The notes under the pieces are model-generated. The model was not told where the DNA came from, made no database searches, and worked only from the letters and a program-made list of their open reading frames with translations. A program made the translations under genes and the position numbers. 22,884 bases of DNA from an uncultured Lachnospiraceae bacterium (GTDB lineage Bacteria; Bacillota; Clostridia; Lachnospirales; Lachnospiraceae): positions 1 to 22,884 of the forward strand of contig CAJOQO010000093.1 of the NCBI GenBank assembly GCA_905236545.1, given 5' to 3'. Shown here one piece after another: positions 4,601 through 22,767 of the stretch; the first letter of the stretch is position 1; each line of letters opens with the position of its first letter.

Positions 4601-5224
4601 CTGATCGAAGGAGAACAGCTGCAGCTGATCGTGTATCTGGACGCCGCGCTCAGTCTGGAGCAGAAAGCCCATCCGGAAAAAGAAATCGTATGCGCCGGGG
4701 CATTTTACTACGCATTCCAGGAACCGATGGTCGAGATGTCGCCGGATATGACGCCGGAAGAGCTGGAAGACCTGACGGTCGGCAGCATGAGAGTCAAGGG
4801 ACTGGTCAACGGGAGGGCGGATGTCGTGGAGCGCCTGGACAGGGGGCTTTCGGAGCCGGGACCGTCCCTTGTCATTCCCGTGATCCGAAATAAAAACCCC
4901 GGAGAACTGAGAGCTTCGGACAATGTGATTACGGACAGGCAGTTTGAACTGCTCCGGGAATATGCGAAGGACAGGATGAGGAAGGCTGCTGCCTCCATTC
5001 TGTCCGGACAGACCGCGCCGAATCCTTCGCGGATGGATACGAACACAACGTCCTGCACCTTTTGTCCCTATCATGATGTATGCGGGTTTGATCCGCACGG
5101 GAAGGGGATGAGGTACCGGGAGCGTGCAAAGCGAAGCAGCAAAGAGAACTGGGAGATCATCGGAAATACGGTGTCAGGAAAGGATACATCATGCCGGAAT
5201 GGACAGCAGAACAAAAGCAGGTGA
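1631..5224 (+). CDS. addB: ATP-dependent helicase/nuclease subunit B (AddB)
   Basis: With AddA this subunit forms the helicase-nuclease that resects double-strand DNA ends and responds to Chi in Firmicutes. The protein has 1197 residues, close to the usual length of about 1160. GGGAGG precedes the ATG at 1631. A Walker A motif, GTSGSGKS, lies at residues 8-15, as expected for the inactivated AddB helicase half. The C-terminal nuclease domain shows HH at 838-839, GKIDRID at about 956-962 and VDYKSS with D978 and K980, the RecB-type nuclease residues. Four cysteines for the AddB 4Fe-4S cluster are present: C808 before the nuclease core and C1142, C1145 and C1151 after it (CX2CX5C). These features separate AddB from AddA and from plain UvrD helicases. 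The 3' end overlaps addA by 34 nt in another frame, which indicates translational coupling. Confidence 0.96.
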   Translation: MALILIPGTSGSGKSHMLFERILREARQHPDRRFIVLVPEQNTLMTQKKLVLMSRRSGIWNIDVLSFTRLAYRVFEQTGVERRQILSETGKILLLRLIAERESSRIPILSGVLDRPGSLAELKSILSEMDQYGIGPEQLKDMEREVRGAGSHPALARKLSEIALLQETCERYQEGHFITGEKLPRVLSGKAPLDESLKGVTIALDAFTGFTPAQLQVITVLLGIAKEIYVTVTIDPGILQPGTTSFKACTLSKEMRQAIRERSLPGPELFSLSVRSIQALLRCADEAGTGVELLPVPEGKQRRHRPGGELAHLEKHILRTGREGTRPYAKDGARHEIFLRQCADPWDEAVSAAVTIEELIRRGIRYREIAIVCGSLKDYAEYVRRAMSVYEIPCYIDKSAAVVLNPAFEFVRCAIDILEKNYSYESVIALLRTGLALDAESGETDLLENYLLAAGIRGSRMWSAPFTRRTRKDDQELKDTAEHARSEFMERFGPFAEEMKKSSSLFRSYAGAVWNLILAFDVPEKLELLSSRCREEGREARAQEYAQVLRVISDVLDEAALLIGGEKVTRAQFAQILQAGFSEAKIGILPRGIDQVQVGDLERSRLDEVRVVLFLGLNDEYVPHRKQPGGVLTDPEREYLVSRKVPLAPTAREDANIQQFYLYLTLTRPSEELYLSWSAAKRNGEEMRPSGILRNLQAMFPRAAWVSASSAAPFESVSSLRTASGVLSQALGDYLHADRAADWNEPKLRELVNLFRREEKAGREETLAYLKDLTSEVKAADLDGETAIALYGTILRGSITRLEEFSGCAFRHFAHYGLGLQEREEFAVRSIDIGNLLHHAVEIFSSRLRDGSSASSSGPWTWRNLTDEQRDTLARDALKEALELEHAGDLYTDTGRSAQTLARCERILLRSVKTMQRQICQSAFEPALFELSFGEGDPDSVWINDLPGGGRMRLGGKIDRIDECGDEDAKRLYVKIVDYKSSSRDIELERLIEGEQLQLIVYLDAALSLEQKAHPEKEIVCAGAFYYAFQEPMVEMSPDMTPEELEDLTVGSMRVKGLVNGRADVVERLDRGLSEPGPSLVIPVIRNKNPGELRASDNVITDRQFELLREYAKDRMRKAAASILSGQTAPNPSRMDTNTTSCTFCPYHDVCGFDPHGKGMRYRERAKRSSKENWEIIGNTVSGKDTSCRNGQQNKSR

Positions 5225-8200
5225 TAGAATCCCGCAGTCAGAGCCTTCTGGTAAGCGCGGCGGCCGGGTCAGGGAAAACGGCGGTTCTTGTACAGCGGAT
5301 CCTGGATAAGATTCTTGATCCTTCCGCCGGAGTCGATATTGACCGGATGCTGGTCGTCACCTTTACGAACGCAGCCGCGGCGTCCCTGCGTTCGAAGATC
5401 CGGACGCGCCTGGAAGAGGAGGCTGCAGGATGCGATCCTGAGCGGGTACGGCTGGCGATGCGCCAGCTTTCGATGCTGGCAGGGGATCATATCGAGACGA
5501 TTGACCGGTTCTGCAGGGAGATCGTGCTGGATCACGCGGATGCGCTGGAGATTGATCCGTCTTTCAGGATCGCGGACGGGGGAGAGATCGAACTGCTTCA
5601 GTCAGAGGTGGTTTCGCAGGTGATCGAGGAAGAAGCGGATGCTTCCGACCAGACAGACGGGGCGTTTTCTGATCTCGCCCGCCTCTATGCGCCTGGACGG
5701 ACAGATGAAGCGCTGGAAGGGCTGATCCTGGACTTTTATAATTTCTCCATGTCCCATGAGTTTCCGGGAATGTGGAGGCACAGGTGCGCCGACCTGTACC
5801 GGCAGGAGGCAGACGGAAGCGCGTGGATGCAGGAAATGACCCGCATGATCCGCATGCAGCTTGAGGAGGTTCGTGCGAGTCTTCTCGAGGGAATCTCCCT
5901 GTGCGGCGTACCGGGGGGGCCTTACCATTACCGGCAGGCGATGGAGGATCACCTGTCTTATGTGGAGCGTCTGCTGCGCTGCGGCAGCGCTGCGGAGTAT
6001 GCGGACCGCCTGAAGGACTTCGCGTGGCCCAGACCCGGCAGTAAGAAGAGGGGCAAGGACGCGCCCCCTGTGGACGAGACGCTTGAAAAACAGGGGAAGG
6101 AGATCCGGGAGCGGGCAAAGAAGACATTGACCAGGCTTATGGAGCGGTTCTTTTTCGCCCCGGAAGAGCAGATCGATGACATGCGCCGCAGGACAGCGCG
6201 TTATATGGATGCTCTGGTCCGTCTTACCGACCGGTTTGAAGATCTGTTTTCCAGAGAGAAGGCTGCAAGAAGGATTGCGGACTTTTCCGATGTGGCGCAC
6301 TGGGCGCTCCGCGTCCTGATCTGTGTCGGCGAAGACGGGATGCCGGTTCCGGATGAAGAGGGAAACTATGTCAGAACCCGCCTTGCGCAGGAATATGCAG
6401 ACTACTTTCAGGAGATCTATATCGATGAGTATCAGGATTCCAACCGTGTCCAGGAGATCCTGCTCCGGAGCATCTCCAGAGAGGGAGGGCGCTTCATGGT
6501 CGGCGACATGAAGCAGAGCATCTACCGGTTCCGGATGGCAGATCCGCAGATCTTTCTGGAAAAAGCAAAAACCTATCGGGAGGAGGAAGATGCGCCGGAG
6601 CGCAGGATCGACCTGCATCAGAATTTCCGCAGCCGTGCCTGCATCCTGGATGCTGTCAACCTCATCTTCCGGCAGATCATGCGCGCGGAGCTTGGCGGGG
6701 TGGAATACACGAAGGAGCAGGAGCTGCGGGCGGGATACCGGTTCCCCGTTTCCGGTGCCGGGCCGGCGCTTCCGGACGAAGCGTCATCTGAGCCGATGCC
6801 TTCGGCCGAACCGCCGTCTGATCCGGAGTCCCCGTCAGAATCCGGCGAACCGCCGTGTGAGCCGGCCGGCGCGGTCTCTGGAGCAGATGCATCCCAAGCC
6901 GGAGGCATGGTTCCCGAGCTTCTTCTGGCGGAAAAGGACGATGTGGAAGGCGCTTCCTCCGGCGCGGAGGCAGAAGCCGTGATTGTGGCGGAGCGGATCC
7001 GGCACATGGCAGGAAGGATGCAGATCTTTGACAAGGAGAAGAACCTGTGGCGTCCTGTCAGATACCAGGACATCACGATCCTTCTTCGAACGGCCTCGGG
7101 CTGGGCGGAAACGTTCTCCCGCGTGCTCGATGAATACGGGATTCCGAACCGGCCGGATGCAAGCACCGGATATTTCGACGCGGTCGAGGTGCGCACGATC
7201 CTTGCGTATCTGAGCGTTCTGGACAATCCGCGCCAGGATATTCCGCTGGCAGCATCCCTGCGCTCGGTCATCGGGGAGCTTGAGGACAGAGAGCTCGCCG
7301 TGATCCGGACCGAACAAAGGGGCGGATCCCTGTATGACAGCATCACCGCTTACGCCGGATCGGGGAAGGAGCCTTTGATCCGCCGCAAGCTGGAGCATTT
7401 TCTGGAGATGACCAGGCGGCTGCGCGCGTATGTGAAGGACACGCCGATCCACCTGCTTCTGTGGAAGATCTTTGATGAGACCGGTTATGAGAACCGGATC
7501 TCACAGATGGAAGGCGGCCGGCAGAAGCGGGCCAATCTTGCGCTGCTTACGGATATGGCGATCACCTTTGAACAGACCAGCTACAGAGGACTGTTTCACT
7601 TTGTCAGGTATGTGGAAAAGCTCAGAAAAGCACAGAAAGACATCGGGCAGGCACCCGGCAGCGGCGGTCAGGAGAACCTGGTGCGGATCATGACGATGCA
7701 TAAGAGCAAAGGCCTCGAATTCCCTGTCGTATTCGTGAGCGGGCTCAACAAAGGGTTCAACCTGCAGGATGCGCGGGGAAGAATCGTGATGCATGAGCAT
7801 CTTGGCGCGGGGCTGGACTTCCGCGACCCCGGGCGTATGGGGAGGATGCCAAACCGGATCCGCAGCGTAATCGCGCAGAGAATCGAATCGGATTCGATCG
7901 GGGAGGAACTGCGTGTTCTCTATGTCGCCATGACGCGCGCGGAGCAGAAGCTGATCCTTACCGGCTGCGTGGACAGCAGGCAGAAGGCGGTCACGAAAGC
8001 GCTGGCATGCCGCAGCTGTTCGGAAACGATGCTTCCCGAATTCATGATCCGGTCTGCCGCCGGCATGCTGGACTGGATTCTGGCGGCACTTTCCCGCCAC
8101 AGCGCGGAGCGTGATTTTTTCGACAGCGGCAGATGGGAGGGCCTGCCCTTCCGGGAGGACGGCCTCCTGCAGCTTCCCGGCAGGATCCTGATCCGGACAG

Positions 8201-9060
8201 GACCGGAGGTGCTGGCCGGAAGCATCCGGATCAGGAAGGAGCAGGAGAGGCAGCTGGAGTCTTTGTTTACCCAAAGCCCGGATGAGGTGACGGATCCGGC
8301 ACTGCGGACCCGCCTGGACGATATGCTTTCCTGGAATTACACCCATGATACGGAGCGCATGCAGATCCCCGCGAAGCTGTCCGTGTCGGAGATTAAACAT
8401 GAAGCTTACGCGGCGGAGATCAGGCGCATCATGGAAGAGGAGGACGGTACGCCGTGGCAGGAGAGCGATGCTTCAAAGATACCGCAGCCGCAGTTCCTGA
8501 AGGAGATCCGGGAAAAGGAGAAGCTTTCCGCAGCGGCGATGGGGAGCGTATACCATCTTGTGCTTGCCAGCCTGGACCTTACCGGGCCCTGCACACGGCA
8601 GAGTGTTCAGGCACTGTTGGAAACGATGGTTAATTGTGATAGAATCCAGAAGGAAGAGGCGTCGAGGCTCGAGGTCGGAAAGATCATGGCATTTCTTTCC
8701 TCCGGCCTTGCCGGACGCATGCAGGCTGCGGCGCGCAGAGAGAAGCTCTGGCGCGAAGCTCCTTTTGTGGTTTCAAAAAGCGCGGCCGGCATCCGCCCTG
8801 AGTGGAGCGCGGACGAGCAGGTCCTGATCCAGGGGATCATCGATGCTTTTTTTATCGAGGAAGACCAGGTGATACTGGTTGATTATAAGACGGATACTGC
8901 CGCTCCCGGAGACGAAGAGAGTCTGGTCAGAAGATACCGCACACAGTTCCTCCTCTATGCGGATGCATTGGAGAACCTGCTGAGGATGCGGGTAACAGAG
9001 GCCTGGCTCTATTCGCTGAGTCTGCAGAAGGCGATCAGGGTGGACCTGCAGGGACCGTGA
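5191..9060 (+). CDS. addA: ATP-dependent helicase/nuclease subunit A (AddA)
   Basis: This is the 3'-5' UvrD-type helicase and nuclease subunit of AddAB, 1289 residues. All superfamily 1 motifs are seen: Q-motif WTAEQKQVI at 4-12; Walker A AAAGSGKT at 23-30; Ia TFTNAAAASL; II IDEYQD at 411-416; III GDMKQSIYRFR from 438; IV HQNFRSR from 476; V MTMHKSKGLEFPVVF from 834; VI YVAMTRAE from 911. The nuclease domain has H1122, D1218, D1231 and K1233 (VDYKTD) and a downstream TQFLLYA with Q1252. The start at 5191 fits the protein family and lies inside the end of addB. Odd point: residues about 519-575 are a proline-, serine-, glutamate- and alanine-rich low-complexity stretch between motif IV and the next helicase block, which makes the protein longer than B. 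subtilis AddA (about 1230 residues). Confidence 0.97.
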   Translation: MPEWTAEQKQVIESRSQSLLVSAAAGSGKTAVLVQRILDKILDPSAGVDIDRMLVVTFTNAAAASLRSKIRTRLEEEAAGCDPERVRLAMRQLSMLAGDHIETIDRFCREIVLDHADALEIDPSFRIADGGEIELLQSEVVSQVIEEEADASDQTDGAFSDLARLYAPGRTDEALEGLILDFYNFSMSHEFPGMWRHRCADLYRQEADGSAWMQEMTRMIRMQLEEVRASLLEGISLCGVPGGPYHYRQAMEDHLSYVERLLRCGSAAEYADRLKDFAWPRPGSKKRGKDAPPVDETLEKQGKEIRERAKKTLTRLMERFFFAPEEQIDDMRRRTARYMDALVRLTDRFEDLFSREKAARRIADFSDVAHWALRVLICVGEDGMPVPDEEGNYVRTRLAQEYADYFQEIYIDEYQDSNRVQEILLRSISREGGRFMVGDMKQSIYRFRMADPQIFLEKAKTYREEEDAPERRIDLHQNFRSRACILDAVNLIFRQIMRAELGGVEYTKEQELRAGYRFPVSGAGPALPDEASSEPMPSAEPPSDPESPSESGEPPCEPAGAVSGADASQAGGMVPELLLAEKDDVEGASSGAEAEAVIVAERIRHMAGRMQIFDKEKNLWRPVRYQDITILLRTASGWAETFSRVLDEYGIPNRPDASTGYFDAVEVRTILAYLSVLDNPRQDIPLAASLRSVIGELEDRELAVIRTEQRGGSLYDSITAYAGSGKEPLIRRKLEHFLEMTRRLRAYVKDTPIHLLLWKIFDETGYENRISQMEGGRQKRANLALLTDMAITFEQTSYRGLFHFVRYVEKLRKAQKDIGQAPGSGGQENLVRIMTMHKSKGLEFPVVFVSGLNKGFNLQDARGRIVMHEHLGAGLDFRDPGRMGRMPNRIRSVIAQRIESDSIGEELRVLYVAMTRAEQKLILTGCVDSRQKAVTKALACRSCSETMLPEFMIRSAAGMLDWILAALSRHSAERDFFDSGRWEGLPFREDGLLQLPGRILIRTGPEVLAGSIRIRKEQERQLESLFTQSPDEVTDPALRTRLDDMLSWNYTHDTERMQIPAKLSVSEIKHEAYAAEIRRIMEEEDGTPWQESDASKIPQPQFLKEIREKEKLSAAAMGSVYHLVLASLDLTGPCTRQSVQALLETMVNCDRIQKEEASRLEVGKIMAFLSSGLAGRMQAAARREKLWREAPFVVSKSAAGIRPEWSADEQVLIQGIIDAFFIEEDQVILVDYKTDTAAPGDEESLVRRYRTQFLLYADALENLLRMRVTEAWLYSLSLQKAIRVDLQGP

Positions 9061-9114
9061 ATCGTAACTTTGCTTTTTATAAGGAACATCAGAAAAGGAA
9101 CAACAGGAAAGTTC

Positions 9115-12100
9115 ATGCAGGCAGTACGCAGACATACAGGCAAGTATTATTTTCTGACCGGGATGCTGGTTTCGGTTATTCTGGCCGGAATCGGTTTCAT
9201 CGTGATCGGAGTATGGCCGTTCGGCGACGGAACCGTACTGATCATTGATTCGCTTCACCAGTACCTCCCCTTCTATACGGACTATCACGAGAAGCTGACA
9301 TCCGGGCAGAGTCTCCTGTACTCCTTCTCCGCGGGGCTGGGTTACAACTTCTGGGCGACCTGGGCGTATTACCTGGCAAGTCCGCTCAATTTTCTGATCG
9401 CTCTTGTCCCGACGCAGAACGTGTGCGATTTCATGGATCTGATGATCCTCATCAAGATCGGCCTTTGCGGCGGGTGCATGACCTGGTACCTGCACCGCAG
9501 GAATACACGGTCATTTGCTCTGAGCGTTGCTTTCGGCACGATGTTCGCTCTGAGCAATTTCATGATCGGATATTATTTCAACCTGATGTGGCTGGATTCG
9601 GTCGCGATGCTTCCGCTGTGCATGTGCGGGATCGAGCAGATCTGCGGAATCGGAGAGAACCGGACGGTTACGGACCGGTCGGATGGAAGGCTCTACGGCC
9701 TTGCGCTGTGCATCGGCGTGTGGTGCAACTATTATATCGGCTTCATGCTGTGTATCTTCTCGGTCCTCTACTTTGCCGTCTGCCTGATCATCGCAGGGAA
9801 ATGCCGTGTGCGGAGATTCTTCACCAGGATCCTTCGTTTCGGATGGTTCTCGCTGCTTGGGGGAGGCTGCGGCGCGGTCGTGCTGCTGCCTGCCTATCGT
9901 GCACTCACGGCCTCAGAGGCGATGCAGAATAACCGCCTTCCGATCACGCTGGAATCCTTCGACAGCTTTCTGGATATGCTGCTGACGCATTTTGCGGGAA
10001 TCAAACCGATCAATATCGCGAATACGCAGGTCGGACTGAACGCGTACTGCGGAGTCATCGTTCTGATTCTCGTTCTGCTGTTTGCGATGGACCGGTACTG
10101 TTCCATCCGGGAGAGGATCGCCAGGATCGCTCTGGCGCTGTTCCTTCTTCTGAGCTTCACCATGAAGACGCTCAATTATATCTGGCATGGATTCCATCAG
10201 CAGAACGGGCTGCCGAACCGGTTCGCATTTGTCTATATCGCGATCCTGCTGACGATGGCCTTCGACGTGCTGCGGGATCTGAAAAAAATGCGCCTGTGGT
10301 GCATCCTGGCGTGCGGTGCGGCGCCGATTGTCTTTGCGCTGGTATGCCTGATCGGACAGTTTGGAGAGGACTACGAGAATCACCCGTATCCGTCCCGCGT
10401 TTTTCTGATCACGATCGCGCTTCTGGCGGGTTACCTGGTTCTGCTTCTGGTGCTCCGTTTCGTACGCATGCCACGAAGAGCGGCAGCGCTGCTTCTCGCG
10501 GCCCTGTGCATCACGGAGGCCGGAGTGAGCGCGGTTTACGGTATCATCTGCAATGATTCTGTCACCCGGTCGATCTATCTGAAGGATCAGGACTCTTACA
10601 AGACCCTGATGGCGCAGATCGGGGATGAGGACTGGTTCCGCTCCGAGGTGGATGCGCAGCGCATGAGGAATGTGACGCTGTTCTGCGGCGGAAACTCCGT
10701 GGTGATGTTCAATTCCACCATGCAGGAGTCTGTCACGGATTTCTGCGACAGGATCGGGATGGAGGCGCGTACCAATAAGAACGGATACAACGGCGTAACA
10801 GATTTGATGAATGATGTGCTTGGCATCCGGTATGTGCTGAGCGCAAACGGGCGGGGCAGCACCCTGTACGGGATGGAAACCCTGACGAAGGACAATAACC
10901 TGACCGTCTATGAGAATCCGGACGCGCTTCCGATCGGATTCCTCGCGAATCCCGGGGTGACAGAGTGGACGCTGTCCGGAGCGACGCCGATCGACGTGCA
11001 GAATGACTTTGTTTCGCTTGCGGCGGGGCATGATCCGATCTATACGCTTGACCGCTATGTGACACTGGAAAATGATGTCAGTACCGGCATAAAGATCCCG
11101 GAAGGCAAGCAGGTATATGTATATCTGCCGAACCGCGTCAAAGAGCTGGTTGTCACGACGCCTGAGTTCAACAAGACCTATACGACCTTTACCGATCATC
11201 TTTATGTGATCGAAGGATGTGACGGATCGGATGAAGCTTCGCTGAAGGCCAGGATCAACGGGGGAGGCACGCAGGAAGCGATCATCTATACCTGCCCGGA
11301 TAAGCTGGAGCAGGAAGTTGTCGACATCTTATCAGAGAGTGTACTTGAAAATGTTGAGGCCCGGGGAAACAAGCTTTCCGGAACCATCGACGCGGCCCGG
11401 GACGGAGAGCTTGTGATTACGGTTCCCTATGACCGGAGCTGGACCTGCATGGTGGACGGGAAAAAGGTGGAGGCAGACTGTATCGGAGAAGCCCTGACAG
11501 GACTTCCCCTTACCAGAGGCAGACATGAGATAAAGATGACCTACATGCCGGGAGGCATGGAGACGGGATTGTGGATCAGCCTGCTCTGTGCCGGTGCAAT
11601 GGTGTTATCCTTCCTGTATGAATGGAAGAAGAGAAAGAAAGAGAGAGCTATGGAGCAGGGGACGGTTGTGACGGACGATGCAGTATGCAGAATCACGGAT
11701 ATTGTTGGTGAGAAAGCTGTTTTCGAGCATGAGAGCATGAAGAAGCATACGACCTTCCGGATCGGCGGGGAGGCTGATCTGTATGTGGTGCCTGAAAGCA
11801 TACCGGATCTTGCACGTGTGCTTGACTGGTGCAGGCAGCAGAGTATTCCATACTATGTAATCGGCAACGGAAGCAACCTTCTTGTGTCGGACGAGGGATA
11901 CAGAGGCGTGATCATACAGATCTCAAAGAATCTTTCCCGGATCCGGGTTGCGGGAAATGAAATCGAAGCCGAGGCCGGGGCTTTGCTTTCGACAGTGGCA
12001 AAAAGAGCGATGGAGGCGTCGCTGACCGGTCTGGAGCCGGTATCCGGGATTCCCGGAACGCTGGGCGGCGCCCTGGTGATGAACGCCGGCGCCTATGGGG

Positions 12101-12612
12101 CAGAGATGAAGGACTTTGTGAAGTCGGTTCGTGTCCTGGACGGATCCGGAATGATCCTTGAACTGCCCGGAGAGGAGATGGAGTTTGGCTATCGCACCTC
12201 CATCGCGATGCAGAGAAACCTCGTGATCCTGTCTGCAACTCTGGTACTCGAAGCCGGGGAAAAGGAACAGATCGCGGCGGCCATGGAAGACATCCGTCAG
12301 AAACGCCAGTTAAAACAGCCGCTTACGGTTCCGAGCGCGGGCTCGACCTTTAAACGGCCGGAAGGCTGTTTTGCCGGCGCATTGATTGATGAAGCAGGCC
12401 TTCGCGGCTACCGCGTCGGGGGAGCGCAGGTTTCGGAGAAGCATTGCGGCTTCGTAGTGAATACGGGGAAGGCGACGGCGGAAGATGTACGGGAGCTGAT
12501 CAGAGAGGTACAGCAGATCGTGTTCGAACACGCGGGCGTGAGGCTGGAGCCCGAGGTTCGGATGCTGGGGTTTGCGCCGGATGAGGCGCAGGAGACACAG
12601 GAGATCAGATGA
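9115..12612 (+). CDS. murB: YfhO-family membrane protein fused in frame to MurB (UDP-N-acetylenolpyruvoylglucosamine reductase)
   Basis: One uninterrupted frame of 1165 residues encodes two proteins that are normally separate. Residues 1 to about 840 are a YfhO-type (GT-C-like) membrane protein: a first membrane helix near 10-33, the conserved loop IIDSLHQYLPF with D45, further helices to about 480, a large probable outside domain and a last helix near 818-838 followed by basic WKKRKK. YfhO of B. subtilis is linked to sugar modification of lipoteichoic acid. Residues about 846-1165 are a complete type II MurB, which uses FAD and NADPH to make UDP-MurNAc. It shows FRIGG at 881-885, GNGSNLL from 917, a PVSGIPGTLGGALVMNAGAYG-like FAD site, R1027 in YRTS, S1077 in AGSTF and E1147 in EPEVR. 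The basic tail puts MurB on the cytoplasmic side, as needed. ATG 9115 is preferred (AGGAAAG just upstream) over TTG 9070. MurB could also start separately at ATG 11650. Confidence 0.85.
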   Translation: MQAVRRHTGKYYFLTGMLVSVILAGIGFIVIGVWPFGDGTVLIIDSLHQYLPFYTDYHEKLTSGQSLLYSFSAGLGYNFWATWAYYLASPLNFLIALVPTQNVCDFMDLMILIKIGLCGGCMTWYLHRRNTRSFALSVAFGTMFALSNFMIGYYFNLMWLDSVAMLPLCMCGIEQICGIGENRTVTDRSDGRLYGLALCIGVWCNYYIGFMLCIFSVLYFAVCLIIAGKCRVRRFFTRILRFGWFSLLGGGCGAVVLLPAYRALTASEAMQNNRLPITLESFDSFLDMLLTHFAGIKPINIANTQVGLNAYCGVIVLILVLLFAMDRYCSIRERIARIALALFLLLSFTMKTLNYIWHGFHQQNGLPNRFAFVYIAILLTMAFDVLRDLKKMRLWCILACGAAPIVFALVCLIGQFGEDYENHPYPSRVFLITIALLAGYLVLLLVLRFVRMPRRAAALLLAALCITEAGVSAVYGIICNDSVTRSIYLKDQDSYKTLMAQIGDEDWFRSEVDAQRMRNVTLFCGGNSVVMFNSTMQESVTDFCDRIGMEARTNKNGYNGVTDLMNDVLGIRYVLSANGRGSTLYGMETLTKDNNLTVYENPDALPIGFLANPGVTEWTLSGATPIDVQNDFVSLAAGHDPIYTLDRYVTLENDVSTGIKIPEGKQVYVYLPNRVKELVVTTPEFNKTYTTFTDHLYVIEGCDGSDEASLKARINGGGTQEAIIYTCPDKLEQEVVDILSESVLENVEARGNKLSGTIDAARDGELVITVPYDRSWTCMVDGKKVEADCIGEALTGLPLTRGRHEIKMTYMPGGMETGLWISLLCAGAMVLSFLYEWKKRKKERAMEQGTVVTDDAVCRITDIVGEKAVFEHESMKKHTTFRIGGEADLYVVPESIPDLARVLDWCRQQSIPYYVIGNGSNLLVSDEGYRGVIIQISKNLSRIRVAGNEIEAEAGALLSTVAKRAMEASLTGLEPVSGIPGTLGGALVMNAGAYGAEMKDFVKSVRVLDGSGMILELPGEEMEFGYRTSIAMQRNLVILSATLVLEAGEKEQIAAAMEDIRQKRQLKQPLTVPSAGSTFKRPEGCFAGALIDEAGLRGYRVGGAQVSEKHCGFVVNTGKATAEDVRELIREVQQIVFEHAGVRLEPEVRMLGFAPDEAQETQEIR
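11650..12612 (+). other. MurB domain with a possible separate internal start
   Basis: ATG 11650 falls exactly where a free-standing MurB would begin: about 39 residues follow before the FRIGG core, as in ordinary clostridial MurB N-termini (SMKKHTTFRIGG). The preceding bases are purine-rich (gaaagagagagct) but hold no clear AGGAGG. MurB might therefore be made only as a fusion, only by internal initiation with readthrough of an eroded yfhO stop, or both ways. The sequence shows only that the frame has no stop between the two domains. Confidence 0.4.
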
Positions 12613-13463
12613 GATTTATCATTGTGACCGGAATGTCCGGATCCGGGAAGACGCAGGCACTGAAGATGCTGGAAGACATGGGGTATTTCTGTGTCGACAA
12701 TCTGCCGCTGGAGCTGGTCGGAAAGTTCGCCGAGCTGGCGTCAAATCCTGCGCAGGAATACAGCAAAGTGGCGCTGGGGCTTGATGTGAGGAGCATATAC
12801 AAGGGCGGAGGCAGTGTAGAGAGCTTTCTTGAGATTCTGAGGGATTATCCGCATGAGATTCTGTTCCTTGACTGCAGCCGGGAACAGCTGATGAGGCGTT
12901 ATAAAGCAACCCGAAGACTGCATCCTCTGGCGAAGGGAGGCCGGCTTGAGGACGGAATCGATGCCGAGCGGAAGTATCTGACGCCCCTTCGCGATGTGGC
13001 GGACTATGTGATCGACACCAGTGATTTCCTGACCAGACAGTTGATGGCAGAACTGTCCCACCTGTTCTCGGAGGAGACCGGGGAGGGAAGAGTTTTCCTT
13101 TCCATCCTGTCATTTGGCTATAAATACGGGATCCCCCCGGATGCGGATCTGGTTTTTGACGTCAGGTTCCTTCCGAACCCGTTCTATGTGGAGGAGCTGA
13201 AGCATAAGACCGGAAATGATACCGAGGTTCAGAAGTATGTCTGCCAGAAAGAAGAGGCGCAGGTGTTTCTGGATAAAGTGAAGGATCTGCTGGTATTCCT
13301 GCTCCCGCGGTATCGCGCCGAGGGGAAACGTCAGCTGATGATCTGCGTTGGATGCACCGGGGGAAGGCATCGTTCCGTGACGATGGCAAATAAACTGGCA
13401 GATGTATTTACCGGCCTTGGCTGGCAGGTTTCGCTGCTCCACAGGGATATCGTCAGACAATAG
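12609..13463 (+). CDS. rapZ: RapZ/YvcJ family nucleotide-binding protein
   Basis: The protein has 284 residues, the usual size. The Walker A motif GMSGSGKT is at residues 8-15, followed by the family block CVDNLPL. LFLDCS and RRYKATRRLHPL lie in the middle, and the C-terminal domain shows SFGYKYGIPPDADLVFDVRFLPNPFY-type sequence and CVGCTGGRHRSV, the conserved substrate or ligand pocket. In E. coli RapZ is an RNA-binding adaptor that controls glucosamine-6-phosphate synthase. In Firmicutes the YvcJ homologue binds nucleotides and its exact role is less clear. The ATG overlaps the MurB stop by 4 nt (ATGA), so translation is coupled. The murB-rapZ-whiA order links it to cell-envelope precursor supply. 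Confidence 0.95.
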   Translation: MRFIIVTGMSGSGKTQALKMLEDMGYFCVDNLPLELVGKFAELASNPAQEYSKVALGLDVRSIYKGGGSVESFLEILRDYPHEILFLDCSREQLMRRYKATRRLHPLAKGGRLEDGIDAERKYLTPLRDVADYVIDTSDFLTRQLMAELSHLFSEETGEGRVFLSILSFGYKYGIPPDADLVFDVRFLPNPFYVEELKHKTGNDTEVQKYVCQKEEAQVFLDKVKDLLVFLLPRYRAEGKRQLMICVGCTGGRHRSVTMANKLADVFTGLGWQVSLLHRDIVRQ

Positions 13464-17183: not shown

Positions 17184-20100
17184 GTGCGAAGACGCCTGGA
17201 ACAACTCTTAAATGAGACATTTGAATATGATCCGCCCAGGCTTGTGTATGAGCCGGCCTCGATCGAGCGGGAGGCGGAGGAGGGCGAGGTTCTTCGCGGC
17301 AGCATCCTGCTTTCCCATCCGGAGGCGAAACGGTGCAGAGGCTTCGTTTATTCTTCCAATCCCCGTATGGTTCTTCAGACGGCGGACTTTTACAGTGCGA
17401 GATCCGAGATCCGCTATCAGGCCGACCTTACAGGATTGAAGCCGGGTCAGAAGGCAGAGGGAAAACTGACGGTATGCTGTGAGCTGGGAGAGGAAACGAT
17501 TCCCTTCTGTTTCCGCGTGAGAGAGACTGCCGCGCCGGAGCCGGTGATGGATACGGACGCACTGTGTGAGCTTGCGCAAACGGACCTGACGGCCGCGGCG
17601 GAACGATTTGTCTCCCCCCGGTTCGGGGAATCCCTGGAACAGGTCAGCTATGAAGCGCTCACGATGTGGAAGGCTTTTGCTTCCGAGAAAGAGCCCAGAC
17701 GGGCGCTGGAACAGTTTCTGATCGCGGAAGGAAAGAAGGATACGATCGAGCTTTCCCTTTCCGGAGAGACGCATAAGATCGTGAATCCGGCAGGAACTGT
17801 TCTGGAAGAGGTCATGCTTTCCAAAAGTACATGGGGGTTTCTGGAGATCGAAATCTCCTCTGATTCACGTTTCCTGAGAGTGGAGAAGAAGCAGGTGAAT
17901 ACGGAGGAGTTTGTCGGCTCCGAATGGCCGCTGCGCTATGTCGTGGACTCCAACTTCCTGCATGCAGGGCGCAATCTCGGAAGAATCACCATTCACACCT
18001 GCTACCAGACCCTTGCCTTTGAACTGTGTGTTGAGGTGAGAGGGAACGCGGATCTGCGTCAGCACCGCGTGCAGAATGTGATGATCAAAAAGGCGCTCTG
18101 TCTGTATCTGGACTACAGGCTGGGCCGGATCGATCTGCATCAGTGGACAGAGCGTACCCAAAGTGTGATAGAGAGTTACAGACGTTCAGGAGGCAGGAAT
18201 CTTCTCGCGAATCTTCTGGAGGTCTTTGTGCTGCAGGCAGAGGGCAAACGAGCCTCCGCCGAGCGGGAGCTGCACAGAATCGAGAGGAATCCCCGGATTC
18301 TGGAGGATCCCAATGCGCAGGCTGTCTGGCTCTATCTTTCCACCTTTTTTTCCAGGGATGGAGACTACAGGACCCAGGTGCGGGAGAAGCTGATGGAGCT
18401 TTCCCTGAAGTACCGTTCCTCCTGGATGATCCAGTGGCTGAGCATGTATCTTCCGGAGGAGGAGCAGGGAACGGATGCCGGGAAGCTGGATAAGATCCTG
18501 CATTATGTGGAACAGTTCCATGCCAGCCCGATCCTACTGCTGGAAGGGGTCATGATTGTAAGGGAGAATCCTTTCCTTCTCCATGAATGGACGGGCGGTG
18601 CGAGGATGCTGTTTGGATGGGCGGTGAAGGAGCACGTGCTGGATGAGCGGTTTGTGCTTCACAGCATGAATCTGATCCGCCGCAAGGGGGGATATGATCC
18701 CGTTACGTTCCGTATTCTTGACAGATGCTACGCCGATACGCGTCTTGATGATGTACTCGCCGTGCAGGCTCAGATGGCAATCGACGGCGGGAAGACGGAA
18801 GAAAAGTATTTCCCTCTGTACCAGACAGCGGTTGCGCGCGATCTGAAGATCACCGGGCTGTATGAATACTATATGAAGACCATGCGTGAGGTCCGGATCG
18901 AGCAGATGCCGCAGGTGATCCGCCGTTATTTCGTGATGAACGAAACCATGGACTGGCGCAGCAAGGCCCATATCTATCGCAACATGTCCGACTCTGAGGA
19001 CAGCATCCCGCAGATCTTTGCGGCCATGCGTTCCCGGATGGAGAAGTTTATAACGGACCAGATCCAGATGGGACATATCAATGAAGATCTGTCGGTTCTG
19101 ATCTCCAGGTATCTCGTTCGAAGGATGGTGACGCCTCAGCTGGCAAGAAAGCTGATCCGCCTGCTGTTTACGTTCGAGGTGGACTGCCTGAGCCCGGATA
19201 TGAAAAAGGTTATCGTGGCGGACGCCCGCCGCAGCCGGGAATATATCACTGTAATCGAGAATCATATGGCGCAGGTGCGGATCTATTCCGAGCAGTCCAG
19301 GATTCTTCTGGAGGATGAGCAGGGAAGAAGGTATGCGTCCACCTCATTGTATATGGCGCAGCATCTGCTGAATGACACGGCCATCATGAACCTGTGCGTG
19401 CAGGAAGCGGCGGATGAGCCGCACCTTCTCATGTTCTTCACGCTGAATCCGATGGTGAAGCAGCCGATCACCCACAAGACGCTGAAGTTCTATCTTGAGG
19501 CCGCGCATATGGCGGCATTTTCGGAGAGCTACAGGATCCAGATTCAGACCTGGCTGCTGGACTATTATTATACCCATCCGGAGGAGGAAACCTTGTCTTC
19601 CTTCCTGCGGGAGATCGATCTGGAGACCTATATCCGGATAGACCGTTCGAAGCTTTTGTTTCTTCTGACACAGGACGGAAGATATGAGAAAGCCTGGACG
19701 ATCCTGGAGAAGTACGGGACACAGGACGTGGAGCTGAACCGGCTGATGCGGGTTCTTTCACAGGTTGTCATTTCCAGGGAGTACGAGGAAGACCGCACGC
19801 TTCTCGGATTCTGCGCCGCGCTTTTTGCAGCCGGCAGGGTAGAGGAGCACATCCTCATCTATCTGCTGATGTATTATGAAGGTCCCGTGGCGAGCATGAA
19901 GAACCTGTGGCAGGCCGGACGGGAGTACGGACTTGAGACGATCAATCTTGAGAAGAAGATCCTGAGCCTGATTCTGTTTACGAGACAGGGCAGTGAGAAC
20001 ACGGAACAGATTTACCGGTCTTACCGCAGATCGCTCGGAAGCCGCAGGATCTGCCAGGCGTATGTGATCCTGCGCTCCTATGAATATCTGGTCAAGGGCA

Positions 20101-20717
20101 CTCCGGTCGGAGAAGCGATCTTTGATGACTGCCTGACCGACTATGAGAAGGGCGGAAAGCTGCCGGATGTCTGCGCGCTTGCGCTCCTGCAGTATCTGAG
20201 TCACCTTACGGAATATACGAAGGAGCAGAAGGAGGCAGCGTCCGGCCTTCTCAGGAAGTATTCCGGAATGGGAATCCGGTTTGCCTTCTATAAGAATTTC
20301 CCGTATGAGATGCGCGCGTTTCTGGGTCTGGAGGACCGGGTATTCTGTGAAGCAGTCGCCGATCCGCGGAGCACGGTCAGGCTGTTTTACCGGATTCGGT
20401 ATGAAAATGAGCCTTTCATGGAGATTGTGATGAAGGACGTGTTTGAAGGCATCCGGATCAGGGAATTTGTCCTGTTTGAAGGGGAACAGCTTGAGTGTTA
20501 TACGGAAGAGGTGAAGGAGAATGGCGGGAAGGTGGTAAGCGCCCCCCGTGTTCTCAAGGCGGGACCGGTACCGGAGCAGCTCAGCGGAACCCGGTACGGA
20601 AGGCTGACCCGTATGGGAAAGGATCTGAGTGCGGGCCGGGAAGATGCATTCCGGGAAGAACTGAAAGAATACAGGCAGCTGGACAGCCTGACCAAAGAGA
20701 TCTTTACTTTAATTTGA
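17184..20717 (+). CDS. Large DUF5717-like protein: two beta-rich N-terminal segments and a long helical region
   Basis: This is a 1177-residue protein of unknown function, resembling what I recall as the DUF5717 family of Lachnospiraceae. The GTG at 17184 is used because AAGGAAGAGG lies 7-16 nt upstream and no better in-frame start is near. No signal peptide or membrane helix is visible, so it is probably cytoplasmic. Two N-terminal segments, about 17-113 and 204-287, look like related beta-sandwich domains. Each ends in a similar pattern (LKPGQKAEGKLTV then IPFCFRV; LHAGRNLGRITI then FELCVEV). From about 295 to 1010 the sequence is alpha-helical with repeat character, like TPR or other solenoids. 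The last 150 residues are again mixed, with strand-like YRIRYENEPFMEIVM. It sits 72 nt after nrdR and 92 nt before the ASKHA-like gene. A scaffold or client-binding role is inference only. Confidence 0.75.
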   Translation: MRRRLEQLLNETFEYDPPRLVYEPASIEREAEEGEVLRGSILLSHPEAKRCRGFVYSSNPRMVLQTADFYSARSEIRYQADLTGLKPGQKAEGKLTVCCELGEETIPFCFRVRETAAPEPVMDTDALCELAQTDLTAAAERFVSPRFGESLEQVSYEALTMWKAFASEKEPRRALEQFLIAEGKKDTIELSLSGETHKIVNPAGTVLEEVMLSKSTWGFLEIEISSDSRFLRVEKKQVNTEEFVGSEWPLRYVVDSNFLHAGRNLGRITIHTCYQTLAFELCVEVRGNADLRQHRVQNVMIKKALCLYLDYRLGRIDLHQWTERTQSVIESYRRSGGRNLLANLLEVFVLQAEGKRASAERELHRIERNPRILEDPNAQAVWLYLSTFFSRDGDYRTQVREKLMELSLKYRSSWMIQWLSMYLPEEEQGTDAGKLDKILHYVEQFHASPILLLEGVMIVRENPFLLHEWTGGARMLFGWAVKEHVLDERFVLHSMNLIRRKGGYDPVTFRILDRCYADTRLDDVLAVQAQMAIDGGKTEEKYFPLYQTAVARDLKITGLYEYYMKTMREVRIEQMPQVIRRYFVMNETMDWRSKAHIYRNMSDSEDSIPQIFAAMRSRMEKFITDQIQMGHINEDLSVLISRYLVRRMVTPQLARKLIRLLFTFEVDCLSPDMKKVIVADARRSREYITVIENHMAQVRIYSEQSRILLEDEQGRRYASTSLYMAQHLLNDTAIMNLCVQEAADEPHLLMFFTLNPMVKQPITHKTLKFYLEAAHMAAFSESYRIQIQTWLLDYYYTHPEEETLSSFLREIDLETYIRIDRSKLLFLLTQDGRYEKAWTILEKYGTQDVELNRLMRVLSQVVISREYEEDRTLLGFCAALFAAGRVEEHILIYLLMYYEGPVASMKNLWQAGREYGLETINLEKKILSLILFTRQGSENTEQIYRSYRRSLGSRRICQAYVILRSYEYLVKGTPVGEAIFDDCLTDYEKGGKLPDVCALALLQYLSHLTEYTKEQKEAASGLLRKYSGMGIRFAFYKNFPYEMRAFLGLEDRVFCEAVADPRSTVRLFYRIRYENEPFMEIVMKDVFEGIRIREFVLFEGEQLECYTEEVKENGGKVVSAPRVLKAGPVPEQLSGTRYGRLTRMGKDLSAGREDAFREELKEYRQLDSLTKEIFTLI

Positions 20718-20755: not shown

Positions 20756-20809
20756 ATCGTAGCCTGCCATATCAGTGACGGAATGGATACCGATGGATGG
20801 AAGAATAAG

Positions 20810-21973
20810 ATGGAAGAGGATAGAGGTACTTTAATCGGAATACAGATGTCGGCGGAAGGGGCTCAGATTACGTGGTATCATGCTTCGCTGGAAGAACCCC
20901 AGACGCTGTCCCTTCCCGGCGAAGGGGAGGACGGCCTGATGAATGTGCCGTCTGAAGCGTGGAAAGGCGCGATGAGAGGCGGCAGATTCGGGACCCAGGC
21001 GCTGGCGCGCTTCCTCGGGACGCTGATCGATATGGTTCCCGGAGAGAAGCAGGTGAGGGATCTGAGAATCGCGATCACGGTTCCCGCGCTCACGCAGAGC
21101 CTTGGGGATCATATTGCCGCGGCTCTGGAGGGAATGGGATTCGAGCGCAGAAATATCTTCCTTCAGGACTGGAAAACAAGCTTTTACTATTACGTGGTAA
21201 ACATGCGCAGGGAACTGTGGAGCGGTGACGTCGCGTTCCTCAGGGTAAAGAATCAGCAGATCGTCGGAAATATCCTCCATATAGACCGCTCCGTGAAGCC
21301 GGGGGTTGCCACGATCGAAGAGATTGCCTCCGCCGATGTCAGTGAACGGGCGAGGGGAAATATGACGGAGGAAGCCTGGGACAGGGAGCGGGACCGCAGG
21401 CTGTATGACCTTCTGGGGCGGCTGTTTGAGCGCCGCAATGTTTCCACAAGCTATCTGTATGGCAACTATTTTGACAGGAGCTGGGCGAGCCGTTCGTTTC
21501 AGTATCTGACGTTCCGCAAACATGCTTTCCAGGGGCAGAATCTGTTCTCCAAAGGCGCCTGCTACTGCGTGATGGCCAGGATGGGTTATATAAAGATGCC
21601 GGATCTGCTGTTCATGGGAGTGGATCAGATCAGCGAAGAGATCGGTATCCGGGTGCGGGTGCGTGGAAAGGAGCAGTACCAGGTTCTGATTCCGGCCGGA
21701 CAGAACTGGTATGAAGCGCATTGTCAGATTGATATTATCCCGGATGAAGAGCAGAGCGTGACGATTCTGACTACGCCTGCGGACGGGGGCGAGACAGTGG
21801 GACATGTCCTGCGGCTGGATCATTTTCCGGACAGGGAGAATCGGGCGACGAGGCTCAGGATGACAATCTATTTCACAGCGCCTGAGCGATGTGAGGTGGA
21901 AGTGGAAGACCTGGGATTCGGCGGATTTTATCCGGCAGCAGGACGGGTCTGGAAGAGACAGGTGATGCTATGA
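20810..21973 (+). CDS. DUF5716-like protein resembling a degenerate Hsp70/actin-fold ATPase
   Basis: This 387-residue protein has no established function; I recall the family as DUF5716, found next to DUF5717. ATG 20810 is preferred since GGAAG lies 6 nt upstream. An in-frame ATG at 20783 would add nine residues but lacks a site. The first half can be laid over Hsp70: GTLIGIQMSAEGAQITWY at 6-23 stands where Hsp70 has GIDLGTT, and IAITVPAL at 87-94 followed by AALEGMGF and a conserved-looking QDWKTSFYYYV stands where Hsp70 has ITVPAYF, then AGL, then NEPTAAA. The phosphate-1 aspartate is replaced by Q11, and no GGG phosphate-2 motif is seen, so ATP hydrolysis is doubtful. The second half is beta-rich (about 260-387). 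It has no signal peptide. Its stop overlaps the next gene by 4 nt. The fold assignment is inference from pattern only. Confidence 0.65.
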   Translation: MEEDRGTLIGIQMSAEGAQITWYHASLEEPQTLSLPGEGEDGLMNVPSEAWKGAMRGGRFGTQALARFLGTLIDMVPGEKQVRDLRIAITVPALTQSLGDHIAAALEGMGFERRNIFLQDWKTSFYYYVVNMRRELWSGDVAFLRVKNQQIVGNILHIDRSVKPGVATIEEIASADVSERARGNMTEEAWDRERDRRLYDLLGRLFERRNVSTSYLYGNYFDRSWASRSFQYLTFRKHAFQGQNLFSKGACYCVMARMGYIKMPDLLFMGVDQISEEIGIRVRVRGKEQYQVLIPAGQNWYEAHCQIDIIPDEEQSVTILTTPADGGETVGHVLRLDHFPDRENRATRLRMTIYFTAPERCEVEVEDLGFGGFYPAAGRVWKRQVML

Positions 21974-22767
21974 GTTTTGACCTGTGTACCGTTAAGACAG
22001 CTCAGCACCCTTATTATATCGGGAGTGTCGGGACACGGATCTTTTCTGTTGAGGAACTGTGCTGGTTTCTGCACCGCAATCTGTGCCTGATTGACGAGAG
22101 CATCGCCGCTCCGGCGCTTGTGGACTGGATCAGAGATGAGCTTGGCCTGAAGGGACTGGCGAGAAAGCTGGCGGATGCGCTGGAGCGCCCGGACAGGGAT
22201 GTGAGTTATTTTGTCCTCCCGATTTTCCAGGAGATCGGGTATCTTCCTGCCGGGGAGACCAGACGCGTCAGAGAAGAACTGACGCGGGTGCAGGTGCAGC
22301 CGGAGGAGGAGCGGACAAAGACCCGGGCGGACTATCTGGTGAACGGAGGCCGCCTGCAGGCGGCATGTATTCTTTACCGGGGTATCCTGGACAACCGGAA
22401 TGCCGGCCGGCTCGGCGCACCGTTTTATTCGTCGGTCTGGAACAATCTTGGCTGTGCGCTCGCCCGGCAGTTCTGTTTCCGCGAAGCCGCTGACGCATTT
22501 TTAAATGGATGGAAGACATTCCAGACAAGGGAACTGATGCGCAGATATGTCAGTACGCTTCCCCTCTTTCTGTCGGAAGAGGAATACCGGAAGAAGCTGG
22601 AGGAATTTGGCGCGGACAGTGTGCTGGCCGGCAAGATTCAGGAATACAATGCCGCCTGCGCGAAGCGCGCGGAGGAAAAAGCTGCCGCAAAAAGCAGCAT
22701 GGCGAGGGAAAGCGCGGTGGAACTGGAGGAACTCAGGGAAGCCTACCGCAGGAGCGCGCTCGGATAG
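21970..22767 (+). CDS. Hypothetical protein with a TPR-like helical region
   Basis: This 265-residue protein is not recognised as a named family. The ATG at 21970 overlaps the previous stop (ATGA), so the two proteins are translated together and probably act together. The N-terminal part (1-100) starts SFDLCTVKTAQHPYYI and reads as mixed alpha/beta with an aromatic VEELCWFLHRN segment. Residues about 118-195 look like one or two TPR-type helical hairpins (ADYLVNGGRLQAACILYRGIL and VWNNLGCALARQFCFREAADAF). The C-terminus is a charged alanine- and glutamate-rich helix, possibly a coiled coil. It has no membrane helix and no signal peptide. It is the last gene before a strong terminator, so the cassette ends here. 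Confidence 0.8.
   Translation: MSFDLCTVKTAQHPYYIGSVGTRIFSVEELCWFLHRNLCLIDESIAAPALVDWIRDELGLKGLARKLADALERPDRDVSYFVLPIFQEIGYLPAGETRRVREELTRVQVQPEEERTKTRADYLVNGGRLQAACILYRGILDNRNAGRLGAPFYSSVWNNLGCALARQFCFREAADAFLNGWKTFQTRELMRRYVSTLPLFLSEEEYRKKLEEFGADSVLAGKIQEYNAACAKRAEEKAAAKSSMARESAVELEELREAYRRSALG

Follow-up and report, generated by a model that had tools for sequence, protein, structure and literature searches.

A reading frame of 1165 codons in a Lachnospiraceae genome joins yfhO, which encodes a polytopic membrane protein, to murB, which encodes an essential enzyme of peptidoglycan precursor synthesis. The DNA analysed (the window) is a stretch of 22,884 nucleotides, positions 1 to 22,884 of contig CAJOQO010000093.1 from an uncultured Lachnospiraceae bacterium (assembly GCA_905236545.1). 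It is one contig of a 2.4-Mb genome that is split into 349 contigs and is 72% complete and 4% contaminated. The locus is confirmed as a real in-frame fusion in which a complete YfhO is followed by a complete MurB. Conservation of the junction suggests that yfhO-murB is probably a dual-product gene, giving both a membrane-tethered and a free MurB, with expression of the two predicted from sequence. The fused gene is laid out as follows.

9115..12612, + strand: yfhO-murB fused coding sequence, 1165 amino acids, a single frame from ATG 9115 to TGA 12610-12612
9115..11634, + strand: YfhO part, residues 1-840, with PF09586 at residues 17-822
11563..11619, + strand: last hydrophobic segment, residues 817-835, from a Kyte-Doolittle scan
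11620..11649, + strand: basic tail EWKKRKKERA, encoded by purine-rich DNA that resembles a weak Shine-Dalgarno region
11650..11652, + strand: retained murB start codon ATG (Met846), a probable internal translation start judged by start-codon conservation
11650..12612, + strand: MurB part, 320 amino acids, from profile matches and alignment to 1hsk
12193..12195, + strand: codon of R1027, from alignment to 1hsk and alignment A1
12343..12345, + strand: codon of S1077, from alignment to 1hsk and alignment A1
12553..12555, + strand: codon of E1147, from alignment to 1hsk and alignment A1

No internal stop codon occurs in the 1165-residue frame, and the mechanically called open frame has an earlier TTG at 9070, upstream of ATG 9115. 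The YfhO profile is covered almost end to end (positions 2-835 of 835; 454 bits against a cut-off of 28.5). In the MurB part, FAD_binding_4 (PF01565, residues 888-1017) and MurB_C (PF02873, residues 1052-1151) both score above their Pfam cut-offs, as do the MurB model NF010480 of NCBIfam (residues 867-1153, 376.8 bits against 259) and TIGR00179 (253 against 144.5). The catalytic arginine, serine and glutamate align with those of the solved MurB 1hsk, which we take to be the Staphylococcus aureus enzyme; R1027 is presumably the active-site arginine, S1077 the catalytic serine and E1147 the catalytic glutamate. In alignment A1, R1027 and S1077 are each conserved in 43 of 43 sequences and E1147 in 42, with one gap. 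The N-terminus of the MurB part is about as long as that of the standalone MurB of relatives. The initial annotation had described a single open frame leading from YfhO into a full MurB with these three residues, and the frame, the profiles and the alignment to 1hsk all agree with it.

The fused gene is the only source of MurB found in its genome. A protein-family search gave a single MurB_C match in every one of the 19 genomes of the genus, and a second MurB was not found elsewhere in any of them; eight of the 19 reach at least 90% completeness with no more than 5% contamination, and the window's own is 72% complete.

The join is widespread among close relatives. Of the 19 genus genomes, 17 carry it in frame, and none of the 17 fused frames contains an internal stop where read; three of these loci (L040, L041 and L045) are truncated by the end of a contig, at a point outside the junction. 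The sample consists mostly of metagenome bins, those with RUG in their names presumably from the rumen, together with the isolate Porcincola intestinalis (L042), which also has the fusion. This isolate is described as a cultured, strict anaerobe of a pig gut collection (PMC7738495). Public databases already list its fused protein as UDP-N-acetylmuramate dehydrogenase. When proteins of fusion size were searched with the MurB part as query, the best 120 of 315 matches included 43 clusters of YfhO-MurB proteins, the window's own among them, and three of the 43 also carry GtrA (P0032, P0041 and P0043). Many species therefore share the join. A lost stop produced by sequencing or binning error would be conceivable for a genome in 349 contigs and 72% complete; the same join in many independent assemblies and in the isolate rules this out, leaving next to no probability that the join arose as an artefact. 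In the family as a whole MurB was matched in 382 of 397 genomes, and open frames longer than 1100 codons occur, among the matches listed, only in three genomes of the window's own genus. Long frames around MurB in two others (G337 and G263) were judged by eye to be chance open frames and were set aside.

Two of the 19 genus genomes have separate genes. In L046 the TGA of yfhO overlaps the ATG of murB, and in L057 a gap lies between the two. A stop between the genes in relatives had been named in advance as a sign against the fusion; it is found in these two, and both fall inside the fused clade in a quick tree of 64 rows (45 fused, 19 separate; LG+G4, with branch support from the Shimodaira-Hasegawa-like approximate likelihood ratio test, SH-aLRT, only). 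The tree represents the window as P0001 and includes only L043 and L047 of the 17 fused genome loci under their own names. At least four changes between the fused and separate states are needed, with long branches flagged for L061, L055, P0042 and P0033; the rows are a biased sample, and the changes may have run in either direction.

In the reading that we favour, ribosomes starting at yfhO would meet no stop codon and read on, and every completed YfhO would carry MurB, anchored through a short basic linker on the cytoplasmic side of the membrane as the predicted topology indicates. A second set of ribosomes would start at the retained murB start (ATG 11650, or TTG in a sister clade) and make a free MurB of 320 residues, which is proposed because the start codon is conserved. 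Both forms would carry the full active site and are predicted to be active.

The codon at the position of ATG 11650 is ATG in eight of the 17 fused loci and TTG in five, and in one more (L048) the ATG lies one codon earlier. Within a tree-supported clade of 22 rows, Met846 is invariant (22/22) although the identity of its neighbours, 0.48, is the lowest around any of 37 methionine positions. In the sister clade, the junction codon is TTG in all five loci for which DNA was compared, and no other column has TTG in every one of them. TTG makes up only 20 of the 615 leucine codons of those loci, the five junction codons included; other TTG codons are matched by TTG in none of 58 ordered pair comparisons, and in none of the 31 where leucine is kept. 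Divergence at 4-fold sites among the five loci is 0.46-0.59. Retention of TTG despite this synonymous divergence fits constraint on a start codon; constraint acting only on the amino-acid sequence would give no reason to expect this codon to persist. Three further rows of the clade (P0023, P0026 and P0029) stand outside the DNA comparison, and in P0029 the column has neither leucine nor methionine.

The same feature is apparent at the protein level. In 38 of 42 YfhO-MurB fusions (background 0.45) a methionine is found 20-36 residues ahead of the MurB motif, and 22 of them have it at one exact offset. Among fusions of a Mur ligase to MurB, which serve as a control and, where named, come from other lineages (Verrucomicrobia, Chloroflexi, Chlamydiae), the corresponding count is 17 of 66 (background 0.24). 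These counts leave out one YfhO-MurB and six Mur-ligase fusions without the motif, and four other fusions (with them 19/68). Of 49 fusions of YfhO to an aminotransferase, 43 place the downstream start methionine at an identical offset, and a further two fusions lack the motif. The YfhO-aminotransferase fusions thus keep the downstream start, and the Mur-ligase-MurB fusions do not above background.

The alternative that MurB is made solely as a tethered protein, with the methionine or leucine at the junction incidental, agrees with the stop-free frame and with the lack of a start at the native position in L042, L043 and L047. It also agrees with the behaviour of the ribosome-binding signal. Shine-Dalgarno-like pairing at the junction averages -6.8 kcal/mol (18 start-like codons in 14 fused loci), compared with -3.9 kcal/mol over 674 other in-gene ATG and TTG codons. 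Yet it is no stronger than in synonymous shuffles of the same sequences (single P values 0.23-0.91), because the tail is rich in lysine, arginine and glutamate; amino-acid composition explains its strength, and Shine-Dalgarno strength was dropped as evidence for an internal start. The aminotransferase junctions of L055 and L099, the two read as DNA, likewise have purine-rich, Shine-Dalgarno-like sequence before the ATG. A purely tethered MurB is nevertheless improbable given that TTG is kept in five of five loci against 0/58 elsewhere, that Met846 is invariant, and that the Mur-ligase-MurB fusions differ in this respect.

Besides the shuffles, several observations weigh against the dual-product reading. 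In L042 and L043 the native position has no start and an ATG comes only five codons later, and in L047 nothing start-like precedes a GTG at +23; these three may not make the second product. If the Porcincola pair and L047 do lack the free form, tethered MurB must suffice there, and the tether would then be tolerated. The next-lowest neighbour identity in the methionine comparison, 0.57 at Met1057, also belongs to an invariant residue, because of which the conservation of Met846 is suggestive of a used start but not unique. The five TTG loci form one clade and represent one codon change followed by retention, not five events. Finally, the complete lack of stops in the tail has a probability of ~0.05 under neutral drift, rising to 0.38 at a tenth of the rate. 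These values come from a simulation of neutral stop gain along the 4-fold tree, in which a mean of 3.2 of 17 tips acquired a stop in the eight tail codons; the model ignores indels. The absence of tail stops weakly supports selection for the fusion, and the persistence of the join is weak evidence for function.

The simplest rival is that the stop of yfhO was lost neutrally in a compact operon, with free MurB doing all of the work and YfhO-borne MurB a tolerated by-product. The start codon looks constrained and the persistence of the fusion departs only slightly from neutral expectation (P ~0.05), neighbouring genes overlap, and yfhO is fused to other partners as well. When the YfhO part was used as the query, 41 of the best 120 of 775 matches end in MurB, 51 in an aminotransferase and 28 in neither, as counted from Pfam columns; GtrA precedes YfhO in 12 of the 51 aminotransferase fusions (clusters among P0125-P0200). 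Fusion to an aminotransferase and to a second YfhO suggests that yfhO joins with whatever follows it, its frame often continuing straight into the next gene. On the other side, the frame is kept in 17 of the 19 genus genomes. In addition, L047 lacks a start close to the native position and no other MurB_C match was found in its genome (G010, 91% complete), where the tethered copy would therefore have to be functional. On balance we regard neutral stop loss as rather unlikely. The initial annotation had offered loss of the yfhO stop, with MurB still made from ATG 11650, as an alternative to a tethering fusion. Start conservation indicates that the internal start is used, but alongside the fusion rather than instead of it, and its two alternatives are probably both true.

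Other arrangements of these genes were also seen. A YfhO match and murB lie ~1.0-1.6 kb apart in 17 of 19 separate loci, all but L046 and L057. In the two that were inspected, a class I/II aminotransferase gene fills the interval, identified by profiles in L055 and by resemblance of the translation in L050. In L055 the aminotransferase forms a single frame with YfhO (L055:5968-9717), and the aminotransferase-like gene at L050:8572-9740 appears to change frame, reflecting either an assembly error or a decaying gene. The closest models are those of LL-diaminopimelate aminotransferase, with scores below the cut-offs (for L055, 418 against 593), and assignment as a proven LL-diaminopimelate aminotransferase was rejected on that ground. 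In the window's own genome a relative, not fused, lies on another contig (C177). Single frames of ~1900 codons span two tandem YfhO matches in three genomes (G011:C12, G017:C12 and G018:C21). Cluster P0045 joins an AI-2E/YtvI-like transporter to MurB, another fusion of a membrane protein with this enzyme.

The YfhO part has 13 hydrophobic segments in a hydropathy scan, twelve of them up to residue 474 and one at residues 817-835. Residues D45, S46, H48 and Q49 are invariant and fall in the first predicted extracellular loop. Transferases of the GT-C type are recognised by many membrane helices together with an acidic motif, DxD or a variant of it, in a loop outside the membrane, and the 13 hydrophobic segments and the invariant D45 of the first loop may correspond to these. 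No sequence in the PDB matched the YfhO part up to E = 1. The positive charges of the short loops, as we read them, require one extra helix near residues 190-228. With that helix, charge bias would put a 342-residue domain outside and the N-terminus on the inner side, together with the basic tail EWKKRKKERA, and MurB would lie on the side of the membrane where it would work. The earlier suggestion that topology permits MurB at the inner face of the membrane is supported by this reading. Further YfhO matches and, elsewhere, GtrA matches occur in all 19 genus genomes.

As to purpose, it is possible, and put forward tentatively, that tethering places part of the synthesis of UDP-N-acetylmuramic acid (UDP-MurNAc) beside MraY and beside YfhO, which in Bacillus subtilis is an enzyme that releases undecaprenyl-phosphate. 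YfhO is a plausible partner because it is tied to the undecaprenyl-phosphate carrier that MraY needs, as described in PMC11081497. Tethering may thus benefit the cell. More speculative, and unlikely as it stands, is the broader idea that loss of the yfhO stop is an evolved device. In these Lachnospiraceae, cytoplasmic enzymes of envelope precursor synthesis (MurB here, an LL-diaminopimelate-aminotransferase-like protein in relatives) would be made both tethered to a transferase that recycles undecaprenyl-phosphate and free, in a ratio set by internal initiation, coupling recycling of the carrier lipid to the supply of peptidoglycan precursors.

The flanking genes occur in the order addB-addA-[yfhO-murB]-rapZ-whiA, and the same order is found in fused relatives whose loci are long enough (15 fused loci examined). 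The genes directly on either side are the following.

5191..9060, + strand: addA, upstream of the fused gene, from a profile match
12609..13463, + strand: rapZ, whose own ATG overlaps the TGA of the fused gene as ATGA

The addB and addA genes overlap by 34 bases (window 5191-5224), which together with the ATGA overlap indicates a tightly packed operon. Further downstream, and in one direction, are three uncharacterised genes, matching DUF5717 (17184-20714), DUF5716_C (20783-21970) and no Pfam family (21970-22764). Of seven loci examined in which a long gap or a gene sets yfhO and murB apart, six gave no rapZ match (L050, L053, L055, L060, L063 and L064), and in these whiA follows murB. In the seventh, L061, where yfhO and murB are separate, rapZ is present, as it is in the fused loci examined.

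Many species tie an essential Mur enzyme to a membrane transferase by reading frame, apparently with a free copy from an internal start in most. Gene prediction programs annotate a single protein of 1165 residues at a locus that likely yields two, and because Porcincola intestinalis is in culture, tethered and free MurB are directly testable.

Mur fusions and in-frame proteoform pairs are both known kinds of arrangement (PMC4803751, PMC6420597, PMC11005335), and no report of a YfhO-MurB fusion, or of a start retained inside one, appeared among the papers listed by searches of open-licence literature. The MurB/MurC fusion enzyme of Verrucomicrobium spinosum is described as complementing Escherichia coli murB and murC mutants and as not cleaved; in vitro MurB activity was not shown in that work (PMC4803751). 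There, as here, MurB is a domain of a larger polypeptide, but the partner is a Mur ligase instead of a polytopic membrane protein. Named Mur fusions include MurE-MurF of Bordetella, MraY-MurG, MurG-MurC and MurC-Ddl, and proximity to the membrane has been proposed as their benefit; the early Mur enzymes themselves are treated as cytoplasmic proteins, for which a complex close to the membrane has been suggested (PMC6420597). These also join enzymes of peptidoglycan precursor synthesis, and MraY-MurG likewise includes a membrane protein, MraY; however, the partners given there all belong to precursor synthesis, whereas YfhO lies outside it.

YfhO of B. subtilis and S. aureus is described as the GT-C transferase of the CsbB-GtcA-YfhO system (PMC8035078, PMC11081497), and GtrA-type flippases belong to systems of this type (PMC8035078). 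The B. subtilis protein moves N-acetylglucosamine from undecaprenyl-phosphate to lipoteichoic acid; deletion of yfhO, or CsbB made without YfhO, leaves the carrier trapped and switches on SigM, and this carrier also serves MraY (PMC11081497). The YfhO half of the fusion resembles this system in its end-to-end match to PF09586 and in the fusion of GtrA to YfhO in relatives, but in the accounts of PMC8035078 and PMC11081497 the proteins are separate. The AI-2E/YtvI-like transporter fusion, P0045, similarly places MurB in frame behind a polytopic membrane protein, although its membrane partner is unrelated and it is a single cluster among the matches listed. Bacterial pairs of N-terminal proteoforms made from in-frame internal starts include InfB, CheA and CcmM (PMC11005335). 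As in those pairs, one frame would give a long and a short product, sometimes with different locations; unlike them, the internal start here looks like that of a gene that once stood alone, and the short product would be an entire essential enzyme.

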